A DNA stretch of 64,000 nucleotides, from positions 1-64,000 of IMG/VR virus record IMGVR_UViG_3300036804_000088, one strand, 5' to 3'. The notes under the pieces are model-generated. The model was not told the DNA's origin, did not search any database, and saw only the letters and a list, made by a program, of their open reading frames with translations. The stretch comes from a virus. Position numbers and translations under genes: made by a program. Positions 38,974 to 45,939 of the stretch are shown here, piece by piece (the stretch's first letter is position 1; every line of letters begins with the position of its first letter).

Positions 38974-40035
38974 ATGGCAGGGTTTGCGGCGCTGCCACCT
39001 GAGATCAATTCGGCGCTGATCGAGACCGGCCCCGGCCCGGCCCCGCTGATCGCAGCCGGCGTGGCGTGGCGCAGTCTGGCCGCAGAACACCACGCGGCAG
39101 CGGCGCAATGGAGTTCGATCATTGCGTCGATACCGTGGCAGGGTTCGGCGGCGCAGGCTATGCGGGCCAACGCTGCGGCGCAGGCAGCGTGGATGCAGCA
39201 GGCTGCCATGCACGCTGAGTTGTCGGCAACGCAGGCGCAGCTCGGGGTGTCGGCGTTCGAAGCGGCGCGCGCGGCTATGGTGCCGCTGGCCGCGGTGACC
39301 GCCAACCGGGCGCAGCTCGCGATGCTGATAGCCACCAACCTGTTGGGGCAGAACACCGCGGCTATCGCTGCGACCGAAGCCCAGTACGGAGAGATGTGGG
39401 CGCAGGACGTGACCACCATGGCCGGGTATCAGGTGGCGTCGGCTGCTGTGACCGCGGCGCTTCCGGCCCCGCCCGCCCCGCCACCGTCGCCGCTGCCCGG
39501 CGGGATCATCGGGTTTCTGAACGGGCAGGGTGTCGGCGGGATACAAGGGCTGGGGCTGCTGATCGAAGAGTATGGCACATCGATTGTGTCCAGTTCCCCG
39601 GTGTCGACGCTGCTGGCGCTGCTGGCGATAGCGCAGGATCAGCAGCAGACGCAGCAGCAGTCGTCCGGCAGTCCGTCCGATGAGCGCCGCGCGGAGCCGT
39701 TCGCGGGCAGGGGCATGCCGATTATCAGCCCGGCCGGCTTCGCTGCGTCCGCGGGGATGGGTGACGCGCCGCAACTCGGGCGTCGGGTCAGCGTGCCCGC
39801 CAGTTGGACACAGGCCGCGGGGAAGCCGCCAGCGGCGGTGCCGGTCGAGTTGGCCGCGTCGGTGTCACCGCTGGCCGGCGAAGGGGTGGGGTTGCCGGTG
39901 CTGCCGTTCATGCCGGTAGCCGGGACGTCATCGCGCGCGCCGGACACCAGGAAAGAGAAGCCGAAGCCCGCGGGGTGTGAGGCGCCGCTGGTGGCGTTGC
40001 GCCCGCCGGTGGGCGGCTACAATTCGTCACTGTGA
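38974..40035 (+). CDS. PPE family protein (PPE-SVP subgroup)
   Basis: The 353-aa product begins MAGFAALPPEINSALIETGP, the PPE hallmark. It has the W-x-G turn at Trp55-Gly57, the conserved LGQNTAAIAATEAQYGEMWA (125-144), and in the C-terminal half the SVPxxW motif (SVPASW, 273-278) followed by Pro/Val-rich sequence. In mycobacteria PPE proteins pair with PE proteins and leave the cell through ESX secretion. No PE gene is beside it. Codon use looks richer in GCG/GCC than its neighbours, suggesting capture from a host. It follows the lysis genes and precedes a new promoter. Confidence 0.93.
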   Translation: MAGFAALPPEINSALIETGPGPAPLIAAGVAWRSLAAEHHAAAAQWSSIIASIPWQGSAAQAMRANAAAQAAWMQQAAMHAELSATQAQLGVSAFEAARAAMVPLAAVTANRAQLAMLIATNLLGQNTAAIAATEAQYGEMWAQDVTTMAGYQVASAAVTAALPAPPAPPPSPLPGGIIGFLNGQGVGGIQGLGLLIEEYGTSIVSSSPVSTLLALLAIAQDQQQTQQQSSGSPSDERRAEPFAGRGMPIISPAGFAASAGMGDAPQLGRRVSVPASWTQAAGKPPAAVPVELAASVSPLAGEGVGLPVLPFMPVAGTSSRAPDTRKEKPKPAGCEAPLVALRPPVGGYNSSL

Positions 40036-42511: not shown

Positions 42512-42709
42512 ATGATCGAGACACCGCTGACGCTGGCGACACAAGCCATAGATGCAAGCGCAGCCACGCGGCCAGTTGACGTTGCCCGCGACGTGCTGAA
42601 GTCCCTGCGAGCCGCAGGGTATGTATTCGTCACGCTGCCTGAAAACGTCAACCCGGCAGAGGTCGAATGGAGCTGGCACTACCGGCCACGAACCGACCCA
42701 GACCTCTAA
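42512..42709 (+). CDS. Small hypothetical protein (65 aa)
   Basis: AGGAG (42497-42501) selects ATG 42512; an in-frame GTG at 42485 would add nine residues. The product has a helix PVDVARDVLKSLRAAGYVFV and a Trp-rich end. It is the last rightward gene before the integrase and its stop codon lies in the hairpin at 42706. Confidence 0.6.
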   Translation: MIETPLTLATQAIDASAATRPVDVARDVLKSLRAAGYVFVTLPENVNPAEVEWSWHYRPRTDPDL

Positions 42710-42721
42710 TCGGTAGATCAG
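42706..42721. terminator. Hairpin at the end of int (direct-repeat copy A)
   Basis: CTAATC-ggta-GATCAG is an imperfect inverted repeat inside a 21-nt block that recurs at 43790-43810 with two changes (ACCTCTAATC...GTAGAT.AGC). It covers the stop codons of both converging genes. Placement at the 3' end of int suggests a terminator or a retroregulator-like element; protein binding is also possible. Confidence 0.45.
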
Positions 42722-43596
42722 CAGGCGGTTCCGGCGGCTTCGCTGACCAGCCGGATTTCCGCCGACGACACCGCCGTGTACCGCTGCGTCGTCGCCACCG
42801 ACGTATGACCTAACGCCTCTTGCACCGCCCGCAGATTGTGTGTCCCGGCGTAGCCGCGGGTGGCGAACCGGTGCCGCAGCTTGTGCATGGACCACCCCGG
42901 CGGCATCACCTTGGACACCAGATGCCCGACCCGGTCGGGGCTCATGTGCCCGTCGATCTTGCCGGGGAACAGGAACCCGCCGCGCGGGCAGCCCACCACG
43001 ATGGCATTGGCCAGTGACATGGTGATCGGCACCACCCGCTGTTTGGACCCTTTGCCATGCACGATCAGCGCCGCCCCGTCGCTGCCGTTGACCAGATCGT
43101 CGGTGTGCACGCCGGCCACTTCCGCGCGGCGCAGACCGGCCTCACACGCTAGGCGTGCCATCAACACGGTGCGCGGGTCGGCTACCGCCAGCAGCTCGCG
43201 CCAGATAGCGTCGGTGGCCGGCTTGGGCGCACCGGTGGCCGCGCGCACCGGCGGCAGCTTCACGGTCGGATCGATCATCACGATGCCCGTCACCGTGACG
43301 AACCGGTAGAACGATGCCAGGCTGGCCCGCACCCCGCGGCGGTGCTCTACGGACATCTGGGGGCGTCCCAGTATGGCCAGCAGGTCATCGGCGGTGACGT
43401 CGCCGGGCTCCGCTATGCCCAGCTCGCGCGCGACAGCGCGGACATGGGAGCGCCGGGTGCGCCGGGTGGCCGCGGACGTTCCGGCGGCAACCAGCCATGT
43501 CAGCCAGGCGTCAATCGCGGTGTCCCATCCTCCCGGTAGTGTGTAAGACAGTGTGTGAATCCCCGATGAACTATTGCCCATAGTCACGGTTCGCAT
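42718..43596 (-). CDS. int: Tyrosine recombinase integrase
   Basis: I chose the ATG at 43596 because GGAG lies 5 nt before it on the minus strand; longer frames exist. The 292-aa product has a SAM-like core-binding domain (about 20-105) and a catalytic domain with Arg156 (EAGLRRAEV), a Lys in GKGSKQR, His238/Arg241 (HKLRHRFATR), His264 (ALGHTS) and Tyr273 (TTQRYTAV). It is short, with little room for an arm-binding domain. It would integrate the phage at a host attB. Confidence 0.93.
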   Translation of the reverse strand: MRTVTMGNSSSGIHTLSYTLPGGWDTAIDAWLTWLVAAGTSAATRRTRRSHVRAVARELGIAEPGDVTADDLLAILGRPQMSVEHRRGVRASLASFYRFVTVTGIVMIDPTVKLPPVRAATGAPKPATDAIWRELLAVADPRTVLMARLACEAGLRRAEVAGVHTDDLVNGSDGAALIVHGKGSKQRVVPITMSLANAIVVGCPRGGFLFPGKIDGHMSPDRVGHLVSKVMPPGWSMHKLRHRFATRGYAGTHNLRAVQEALGHTSVATTQRYTAVSSAEIRLVSEAAGTAC

Positions 43597-43791
43597 ATTT
43601 ACTCCGACGTCAGGGGCAGCGCGAGTTTCTGTGAAGACAACGCGCGTTGTCACAGGTTCACGTTCAGTAATGCACCCGAAGATGCAGGATTGCATCCGCG
43701 CATGCGGCGTTGCCGTTGCCGGTTTCTGTGAACAATCACAGTGATCTACATCTGTCCAATAGCCTGTGGATAATGCGCGCTGCGCAAACCT
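43597..43791. promoter_or_regulatory. Palindrome-rich control region upstream of int
   Basis: No gene is seen here. The segment has a perfect 16-bp palindrome GACAACGCGCGTTGTC (43636-43651), GATGCA-ggat-TGCATC (43681-43696), CTGTGA-acaa-TCACAG (43726-43741), and two direct copies of GTTTCTGTGAA (43625-43635 and 43722-43732). These are candidates for integrase or excisionase binding sites or operators controlling int. No clear promoter for int could be fixed. Confidence 0.6.
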
Positions 43792-43807
43792 CTAATCAGT
43801 AGATTAG
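43792..43807. terminator. Hairpin after the repressor operon (direct-repeat copy B)
   Basis: CTAATC-agta-GATTAG is a perfect 6-bp inverted repeat, 5 nt beyond the stop codon of the last minus-strand gene at 43812. With its flanks it repeats the block at the end of int (42704-42724). It is well placed to end the repressor transcript before the int control region. Confidence 0.5.
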
Positions 43808-43811
43808 CGGT

Positions 43812-43961
43812 TTACGCACCCCATTGGCGACAGCATGTCCGGCATCGCCACACCATGGGACGTTCCCCAAGGCTGTCGAACACCAGCACATGCCCGCGGA
43901 GCTGATGCCAGAGCAAGGTGAGGACCACCCGCAACGGCGGAACCGTGCCGGCCTGCTTCAT
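43812..43961 (-). CDS. Small zinc-ribbon-like protein in the repressor operon (49 aa)
   Basis: The ATG (43961-43959) overlaps the stop of the preceding minus-strand gene (ATGA), which favours this frame over another open frame here. The product MKQAGTVPPLRVVLTLLWHQ... ends with MVWRCRTCCRQWGA, a CxxCC knuckle. Function unknown; it is co-transcribed with the repressor. Confidence 0.65.
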   Translation of the reverse strand: MKQAGTVPPLRVVLTLLWHQLRGHVLVFDSLGERPMVWRCRTCCRQWGA

Positions 43962-44140
43962 GCTGTCCTCCCCAGTTCCTTATGTCCCAGCCACTCATAT
44001 CCGCAACCGGCGCAGCGATGCTGACCCTCATGCGTCACCCACCAGTCGGTGCCGGTGCGCGTGGCCGGCATCATGCAATGATGCACCAGCACGCCCGCGC
44101 ACGGGTGGGCGGTGTCGTAGAGCTGCATATTGCACGTCAT
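43958..44140 (-). CDS. Small zinc-ribbon-like protein in the repressor operon (60 aa)
   Basis: The start overlaps the repressor stop (ATGA). The product has several Cys/His: MTCNMQLYDTAHPCAGVLVH and HRCAGCGYEWLGHKE with a CxxC knuckle. It may be a two-knuckle metal protein. In an integrated prophage it would be separated from the repressor promoter if attP lies in the repressor gene. Confidence 0.7.
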   Translation of the reverse strand: MTCNMQLYDTAHPCAGVLVHHCMMPATRTGTDWWVTHEGQHRCAGCGYEWLGHKELGRTA

Positions 44141-44598
44141 GCTGCGTCTTTCAGGTCGTCAGGCTCCGGTGAATTGACCGGCTCATTGGGACAGAATGTG
44201 CGAGCGAACCATTCCGGCACGTTGCCGCGCCAACTCCAACCGAAGGGTTGGAGGTTCGACTCCTCCCAGGGGAGCGACTCCCCGGCGGGAACCTTCCTTA
44301 GTCGCCGGGGACCGGGATGCGGGTGGCCTGACTGTTCCGGCAGCGCCCGGTACCCCGTGGTCACATATTCATAGGAGATCCCTGCGACCCGGCAGAATTC
44401 GTCCAGCTCATCGACGTCCCACGGAATGGACCCGGTCATCCGTCGTGACAGCTTTTGTTGACTCTCCCCGGCCAACCGCGCGACCGCGGAAACGCTGAGC
44501 CCCTTGCGGGCCAGCTCTTCGCGAACACGCCGTGTAACAGCCTGGCTCCTGGTTTCACCATCGTCGCCAGCATCCACCAACATGAATGATGTACTCAT
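44137..44598 (-). CDS. HTH immunity repressor with C-terminal degradation-like tail
   Basis: The 153-aa product starts at the ATG 7 nt after a -10 box (leaderless). Residues about 17-80 are an XRE-type HTH (LSVSAVARLAGESQQKLSRR). The rest is poorly conserved-looking; residues 111-120 (WEESNLQPFG) are the antisense reading of a tRNA T-arm, and the protein ends DLKDAA, like ssrA-type degrons. This is the layout of repressors in integration-dependent immunity systems, where attP lies in the gene and integration removes the tail. Confidence 0.8.
   Translation of the reverse strand: MSTSFMLVDAGDDGETRSQAVTRRVREELARKGLSVSAVARLAGESQQKLSRRMTGSIPWDVDELDEFCRVAGISYEYVTTGYRALPEQSGHPHPGPRRLRKVPAGESLPWEESNLQPFGWSWRGNVPEWFARTFCPNEPVNSPEPDDLKDAA
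44241..44272 (+). other. attP: Candidate attP core (tRNA 3'-end-like, inside the repressor gene)
   Basis: On the plus strand GGAGG-TTCGACT-CCTCC (44250-44266) is a perfect tRNA T-arm: five paired bases and a loop fitting TTCRANY. CAGGGG follows as the start of an acceptor strand. The rest of a tRNA is absent. A tRNA 3'-end fragment next to an integrase is the usual form of an attP core. Edges given here are estimates. Confidence 0.6.
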
Positions 44599-44605
44599 GG
44601 CGCGT

Positions 44606-44633
44606 ATTTTACCTACTAAGCGAGTATCCGCAA
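44606..44633 (-). promoter_or_regulatory. Repressor promoter, leaderless
   Basis: On the minus strand TTGCGG (44633-44628), a 16-nt spacer and TAAAAT (44611-44606) precede the repressor ATG by 7 nt. There is no ribosome site, so the repressor message is predicted to be leaderless. Confidence 0.65.
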
Positions 44634-44686
44634 GTCGGTAGCCTGCCGGCCGAAAATTCACCGTTGCGACACACCCCTGACATCCC

Positions 44687-44715
44687 TTGTGTTTTACGCG
44701 CTGAGGGTGTAACCC
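44687..44715 (+). promoter_or_regulatory. Divergent promoter for the Cro-like gene, probably leaderless
   Basis: TTGTGT (44687-44692), a 17-nt spacer and TAACCC (44710-44715) precede ATG 44723 by 7 nt. The -10 match is weak but the spacing matches the other leaderless promoters of this phage. The -10 box lies within the inverted repeat at 44704-44716. Confidence 0.5.
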
Positions 44716-44716
44716 T
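44704..44716. promoter_or_regulatory. Candidate operator
   Basis: AGGGT-gta-ACCCT is a perfect inverted repeat overlapping the -10 box of the rightward promoter. It is well placed for binding by the repressor or the Cro-like protein so as to block rightward transcription. Confidence 0.55.
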
Positions 44717-44722
44717 TATCAC

Positions 44723-44947
44723 ATGCCGTGTAAACCACTCTCTGAGCGAGTAACCGCGGCGCTTCGCGCCGAGATGGCACGCCGCAACATCACCCAAGCA
44801 TCACTCGCACGCAAACTCGGACGCCGCCAACAGTTCATCTCCCGCCGCCTATCCGGCCGCGTCGTGCTGACCGTAGACGAGCTGGGCAACTTCGCGGACG
44901 CCCTCGACGTCCCCCTAGTCGATCTGGTCGCACCCAACGGCAGCTAG
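44723..44947 (+). CDS. Cro-like HTH protein (74 aa)
   Basis: The product has an XRE-type HTH: MARRNITQASLARKLGRRQQ then FISRRLSGRVVLTVDELGNF. The recognition helix and the xTVDEL segment resemble the repressor (DVDELDEFC), so both may share operators. It is divergent from the repressor, in the Cro position, and leads the rightward early genes. Confidence 0.8.
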   Translation: MPCKPLSERVTAALRAEMARRNITQASLARKLGRRQQFISRRLSGRVVLTVDELGNFADALDVPLVDLVAPNGS

Positions 44948-44988: not shown

Positions 44989-45939
44989 ATGAATGACCTG
45001 CCCAACTACTTCGGACTCGTTCCCATCGACACTATAGAGATAGGGGAACGTTACCGCGCCCAACCTGAAAAAGATCTCGACAAACTCACAGCTTCCATTG
45101 CGGAGCTGGGGCTGCTGCACCCCGTCGTCATCACACCGGACCGCAAACTCATCGCCGGGCAGCGCCGAATCCTGGCCTGCCGGCAGCTCAACCGAACCGA
45201 CATCGAAGCGCACATCGTGTCCGACCTGGACGAAGCCGCCCGGCTGCTCGCCGAACACGACGAGAACACCTGCCGGGTAGCGTTCACCACTGGCGAAGCC
45301 CGCGCGCTGTATAAAAAGCGCAAGGAACTACTGGAACCACTCGGTGAAGCCAAGCGCAACGCCACCCTGAAAAAAGGGAAAGCCGCACCACCCAAGCCTA
45401 ATCCGAAGCCGGCTCCCGTTTCGTCCAGTGAGCAGAACGGGAAACCCGAGCTCCTACCAGAGACACCAGCCGAACACGACGAACCGTCCGCGGTCAAATA
45501 CATAGACCTACCGCAGCCCGTCGTGAAGATGGACACCGGGGCAGCCGCAGCCAAAGGCACCGGCAAAAGCCGTCAAACCCTGGACCGGGCCGAGAAGATC
45601 GAAGCCGTCGCCAACGACGAGAAGCTACCCCAAGAGGTCCGCGACTTCGCCAAGGCTGAACTGACAGCCGTCGACAAAGACGAGAAGCCCGTCAACACCG
45701 CCCTGGCCGAAGTGCAAAAGCAGGTCGAAAAGGCGCAGAACTACCGCAACCAGGCAGCGGTGATCAAAGGTGCTGTGTCCGCGTTCGAACGTCACGCATT
45801 CCTACTGGAAGCCGCATTCATCGGTGCCGACAACTTCGACCCCGACTGCAACATCGACACCGTGCGCGACGGGTTCAAACAGATCCGCGCCCTGGTCGCA
45901 CGGATCAATAAGTGCGGCAAAGAAATCAGCAACATCTGA
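44989..45939 (+). CDS. ParB-like nuclease-domain protein (316 aa)
   Basis: The N-terminal ~90 residues are a ParB/Srx-like domain with ELGLLHPVVITPDRKLIAGQ then RRILACRQL, as in ParB box I and II. A Lys/Pro-rich linker (about 118-150) and a helical C-terminus with a coiled coil (about 230-300) follow. No HTH typical of chromosomal ParB and no ParA gene are seen, so it is more likely a phage DNA-binding or nuclease protein than a partition protein. It carries one copy of the 27-nt repeat. Confidence 0.78.
   Translation: MNDLPNYFGLVPIDTIEIGERYRAQPEKDLDKLTASIAELGLLHPVVITPDRKLIAGQRRILACRQLNRTDIEAHIVSDLDEAARLLAEHDENTCRVAFTTGEARALYKKRKELLEPLGEAKRNATLKKGKAAPPKPNPKPAPVSSSEQNGKPELLPETPAEHDEPSAVKYIDLPQPVVKMDTGAAAAKGTGKSRQTLDRAEKIEAVANDEKLPQEVRDFAKAELTAVDKDEKPVNTALAEVQKQVEKAQNYRNQAAVIKGAVSAFERHAFLLEAAFIGADNFDPDCNIDTVRDGFKQIRALVARINKCGKEISNI
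45414..45440 (+). repeat. 27-nt exact repeat, copy 2
   Basis: Identical to 94-120. Here it encodes PVSSSEQNG in the linker of the ParB-like protein and its ends (CCCGTT...AACGGG) are complementary, allowing a small hairpin. Confidence 0.7.

Follow-up and report, generated by a model that had tools for sequence, protein, structure and literature searches.

The window analysed here comprises 64,000 nucleotides, bases 1-64000 of a 66,486-bp IMG/VR virus record that has no terminal repeat. At the locus of interest a repressor gene, two small open reading frames and a tyrosine integrase gene lie on the minus strand, with a Cro-like gene divergent from them on the plus strand, an arrangement of integrase, repressor and Cro that the initial annotation had described correctly. 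The repressor gene (44137-44598) starts at the ATG at 44598, and its 153 codons specify an HTH protein with the C-terminus PDDLKDAA, as that annotation had also read it. The protein matches Pfam HTH_31 (8e-6) and a PHROG transcriptional repressor family (2e-9), and is 46-63% identical to the immunity repressors of M. abscessus and Gordonia phages. The Cro-like HTH protein (44723-44947, 74 aa; Pfam HTH_3, 4.5e-8) is 36-54% identical to the HTH protein that related phages encode divergently. It is followed in the early region by a gene for a ParB-like protein (44989-45939, plus strand), and a similar gene lies beside the repressor region of a related IMG/VR record (3300050821_002954, hereafter L003).

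The control region between the two divergent genes (44599-44722) gave no promoter match in a sigma-70 scan. The sequence TAAAAT lies 7 nt upstream of the repressor ATG, and a similar GGTAAAGTACG precedes the ATG in the related contig L041, a spacing that suggests a leaderless repressor transcript. Downstream of the repressor, a Cys-rich 60-aa ORF (43958-44140) and a 49-aa ORF with a CRTC motif (43812-43961) are each joined to the preceding gene by an ATGA overlap, so that the three are probably co-translated; neither small ORF has a homolog in Pfam, PHROG or the related phage loci. The operon closes with a hairpin on the minus strand (43783-43818, -28.2 kcal/mol, z -4.6), a probable terminator, and since this follows the small ORFs the integrase gene may have a promoter of its own. 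Upstream of that gene, the segment 43625-43735 (plus strand) contains two copies of GTTTCTGTGAA and a 14-bp palindrome, ACAACGCGCGTTGT, possibly the integrase promoter or operator. The integrase itself (42718-43596, about 292 aa; PF00589, 8.6e-22) is 47-48% identical to those of the BPs group (Liefie, Angel) and prophi79-1, and 69-75% identical over their length to those of L003, L025/L015 and L004.

The PPE-family gene of the window and the relatives that were found point to a likely Mycobacterium phage. The PPE-family protein (38974-40035, plus strand; PF00823, E 1.4e-52) is encoded directly behind the lysis genes and within a few kb of what would become attR. It has no match among 50,697 phage records and may be a prophage-supplied substrate of type VII secretion.

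The initial annotation had noted a perfect tRNA T-arm inside the repressor gene. This T-arm (GGAGG-TTCGACT-CCTCC, 44250-44266, plus strand) is indeed present, and it belongs to a longer tRNA-like stretch, 44238-44275 = AACCGAAGGGTTGGAGGTTCGACTCCTCCCAGGGGAGC, that extends from tRNA position A37, adjoining the anticodon, to the end of the acceptor stem. A blastn search of 7.3 Gb of plasmid records with this stretch returned a single strong match (E 1e-7, 94.7% over 38 bases), to a tRNA-Asn(gtt) gene as called by ARAGORN in the M. ulcerans record NZ_CP083743.1 (L013). With this one record as the host comparison, 36 of the 38 bases are identical to the mycobacterial tRNA-Asn(GUU) gene, well beyond a generic T-arm. 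The tRNA gene is flanked there by dnaG and a DUF4395 gene, and given that the record, although labelled a plasmid, carries dnaG, cysE and cysK, it is probably misassigned chromosomal DNA.

The two mismatches fall at T-loop position 59 and acceptor position 67, leaving an unbroken identity of 22 bp between phage and host (44238-44259), within which the crossover site most likely lies, judging from the sequence. When the phage core was joined in silico to the host tRNA, tRNA-Asn was restored with a fully Watson-Crick acceptor stem; position 67 changes from a T-G to a T-A pair, so the tRNA restored at attL would be slightly better paired than the original. No host match came from scanning GTDB genomes or IMG/VR for exact 28-mers of the phage core, nor from an exact-pattern scan of GTDB with position 59 left free, an outcome explained for both GTDB patterns by their demand for the phage A at position 67, where the M. 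ulcerans tRNA has G. The absence of arm-type integrase sites beside the core is a criterion for integration-dependent immunity (PMC9635641), and an ungapped search, which weak sites can escape, found no repeat pair close to the core on either side.

The core lies in frame within the repressor gene, as codons 108-120 of 153, and the gene is uninterrupted across it, so the DNA of the window represents the unintegrated form. Joining in silico at every tested point of the core shortened the repressor from 153 to 120 aa (44239-44598), followed by TAA, with the C-terminus LPWEESNLQPFG subject to small changes within the core by joining point. GGT is followed by TGG in the phage and by TAA in the host, and the new TAA is the reverse complement of tRNA-Asn bases U35, U36 and A37. 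The predicted prophage repressor is thus 33 residues shorter (the lost tail is encoded by 44137-44238) and lacks PDDLKDAA, while its HTH part is unaltered. The lost tail has an ssrA-like -AA end, shared, among the 56 long ORFs of the window, by only one besides the repressor. The destabilising tag of viral repressors in such systems often takes the form -AA, and from the two terminal alanines we infer that the KDAA tail of the viral repressor may act as a proteolysis tag. Given that attP lies within the repressor gene, insertion at tRNA-Asn should remove such a tag.

Relatives in IMG/VR are found in both states. Three other intact attP forms (L003, L029 and L040) have the tRNA-Asn core within the repressor gene and read it in the same frame, the core of L003 being identical to that of the window at 37 of 38 positions. 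Their repressors end in ...LPWEDSNLQPFG/YQTDTEAMAFAEWRLSCFDEAA (L003), ...LPREDSNLQPFD/HKFAA (L029) and ...LPRVDSNHQPSG/QRRAA (L040), so that all four intact repressors of the tRNA-Asn group, that of the window included, end in -AA on otherwise dissimilar tails; the repressors of L007 and L008 likewise end in -AA. On the other hand, four provirus contigs (L015, L041, L055 and L079) stop exactly at the predicted TAA, after SN(L/Q)QP(F/S)G. These are the only ones among 45 motif-bearing stretches (L041 being counted twice, the second time as L087) in which a reading frame open for over 80 codons runs into the tRNA-Asn motif, and each such frame resembles an HTH repressor. Proviruses in IMG/VR seem to be cut back to gene boundaries, and this would account for contigs that end at a stop codon. 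The proposal that integration shortens the C-terminus of the repressor is thus borne out both by the in silico joining and by the truncated state at the provirus ends of relatives; a lysogen of the window phage itself was not found, and the integrated state is seen in relatives only.

The repressor of L041 belongs to the family of that in the window (36% identity over 3-120), and a 73% identical integrase lies at the opposite end of the L015 record. Integrases related to that of the window also occur in L027, L028, L029 and, as two pieces, in L040; no tRNA-Asn core was found near those of L027 and L028 in the DNA examined, and the far end of the L004 record stops short of any repressor. The genome of L079 (G007) encodes only a distantly related integrase (33%), and those of L055 (G006) and L041 (G008) have no match to the window integrase, so the tRNA-Asn design may extend beyond one integrase family. 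In a short IMG/VR contig (L014, 1-330) a tRNA-Asn core lies about 80 bp from the end with an integrase gene right beside it; this looks like the attR of another actinophage, and the integrase has a Cys-rich, zinc-finger-like insertion.

On the strength of what the sequence shows, namely where the core lies, how it matches tRNA-Asn, that the tRNA is restored, that truncation is predicted and that relatives occur in the truncated state, we are confident in reading the locus as a switch for integration-dependent immunity. In the lytic cycle the 153-residue repressor, marked for proteolysis by its KDAA tail, would be unable to hold lysogeny. The integrase would recombine the core (44238-44275) with the 3' half of the host tRNA-Asn gene, restoring the tRNA at attL, where the repressor frame would read antisense through the tRNA to a TAA directly behind codon 120. 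The coding sequence of the 33-residue tail would end up at attR together with the two small ORFs and the integrase gene, off the repressor promoter; the initial annotation had expected the small genes to be severed in this way, and their ATGA-overlapped layout and the position of att agree. The 120-residue repressor would presumably be stable, repress the cro/early promoter and confer immunity.

The most serious competing possibility, which we consider improbable, is that attP does fall within the repressor gene and yet the tail of the protein is neutral, the long and short forms both being stable and active and immunity independent of integration. Two terminal alanines are weak evidence for a degron, and the truncation leaves the HTH part unchanged, as a neutral tail would allow. 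However, the -AA end is kept in four of four intact tRNA-Asn-group repressors despite dissimilar tails, as against 1 in 55 background ORFs, and BPs and MabB provide precedents for a tail that matters. It is much less probable still that the true crossover is a 16-bp repeat, CTAATCNGTAGATNAG, on both sides of the integrase gene (42706-42721 and 43792-43807), the tRNA fragment being a relic, although the initial annotation had named these positions as an alternative. The repeat is far above chance (two copies found, 0.07 chance matches expected), but it occurs in none of the other phage loci compared, while phages with related integrases do retain the tRNA-Asn core; moreover, both copies lie in one genome and bound the integrase gene rather than matching an attB, and the copy at 43792-43807 sits in the strong hairpin 43783-43818 and is more terminator-like. 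Phages frequently carry tRNA genes, but an accidental T-arm, or a tRNA gene of the phage that decayed and turned coding, is a negligible prospect, in that only the 3' part is present and begins exactly at A37, no complete tRNA gene was called in the window, the stretch is conserved in frame across several unrelated repressors, and the blastn match has an E value of 1e-7.

Taking the locus as an integration-dependent switch, the repressors that share its core are diverse. Alignment of the window repressor with those of L003, L029 and L015 is essentially confined to the segment encoded by the core. The L003 repressor is a relative of BPs gp33 (53% over 73 aa) and unrelated to that of the window, those of L029 and L055 appear alike by eye, and that of L079, likewise judged by eye, is apparently a further type, making at least four kinds of repressor, partly typed by eye, with one tRNA-Asn core, frame and stop. 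The family of the window repressor also occurs with other tRNAs and frames, namely tRNA-Thr (MabB) and tRNA-Lys (L032/L035/L036). The occurrence of different repressors with the same core and frame makes the N-terminal part of the repressor resemble a module that can be exchanged, with att as the point of the cut, and it is plausible that exchange made by the integrase at att lies behind this mixing; tandem prophages with different repressors arise by recombination at such sites (PMC9934374).

A stop at U35-U36-A37 is fixed by the identity of the tRNA, and truncation would therefore work in any host species; with a common core and frame, att exchange could swap repressors between phages with tag removal preserved. 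We therefore put forward, tentatively and as a possibility that we would not yet favor, that the tRNA-Asn site was selected for its anticodon-derived stop, and that integrase exchange at att swaps whole immunity repressors while tag removal is kept. In this frame an immediate stop would arise only with anticodon NUU, or with NCU or NUC plus A37, which is simple enough to be checked in every integration-dependent phage. An anticodon stop universal to tRNA-based systems was also considered and rejected, since the frame differs at the MabB, BPs and tRNA-Lys loci. The int-attP pair, for its part, could supply a new site for integration vectors.

The repressor and Cro of the window are homologous to the immunity proteins of MabB/MabC-type prophages of Mycobacterium abscessus, for which integration-dependent immunity has been reported (PMC8092301), and the annotations of prophiGD16-1 and prophiGD43A-3 themselves place attP within the repressor. 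Among the closest parallels is MabB (phiGD21-1 and prophages, attB-2, tRNA-Thr), in which the repressor (about 46-55% identity) and Cro are homologous to those of the window, the repressor is followed in phiGD21-1 by two small genes and then the integrase gene, attP is at a tRNA 3' end inside a repressor ending in -AA, and the tRNA points toward the truncated repressor. MabB differs in its integrase, tRNA and frame, in having seven host-coded residues before the stop, and in an integrase that ends in -AA. The initial annotation had rightly observed two small Cys proteins between repressor and integrase and an integrase without a clear degron (it ends SEAAGTAC, with no -AA end), but neither sets the locus apart: some integration-dependent systems have three to five genes in the former position (PMC8092301, Fig. 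3 legend), as phiGD21-1 has two, and several have integrases without a tag (PMC8092301), a C-terminal degron on the integrase being frequent in such systems but no defining trait of them.

BPs and Angel (cluster G) share with the window a 47% identical integrase, attP inside the repressor gene and a divergent gene beside it, and the BPs repressor also loses 33 residues on integration (PMC4557955). They differ in tRNA and reading frame; the window repressor has no significant alignment with BPs gp33, the repressor and integrase genes of Angel are directly adjacent, and those of BPs share Prep, whereas the window integrase may differ given the probable terminator between. In the portion of the Gordonia phage PhrostedPhlake record that was examined, the repressor is 52% identical over its first 94 aa, ends AAA and contains a T-arm in the same frame, but the integrase gene overlaps it directly and the tRNA is another. 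L003, of which no description was found in the literature, resembles the window in core, frame, -AA end and integrase (75% identical) and departs from it in its BPs-type repressor. No paper linking integration-dependent immunity to tRNA-Asn was found in the literature searched, which lay outside the founding and most subscription papers. The switch design is already known, and the tRNA-Asn anticodon-stop pattern is the added observation; integration-dependent immunity thereby gains a group of phages, from the environment as well as isolates, that target tRNA-Asn.
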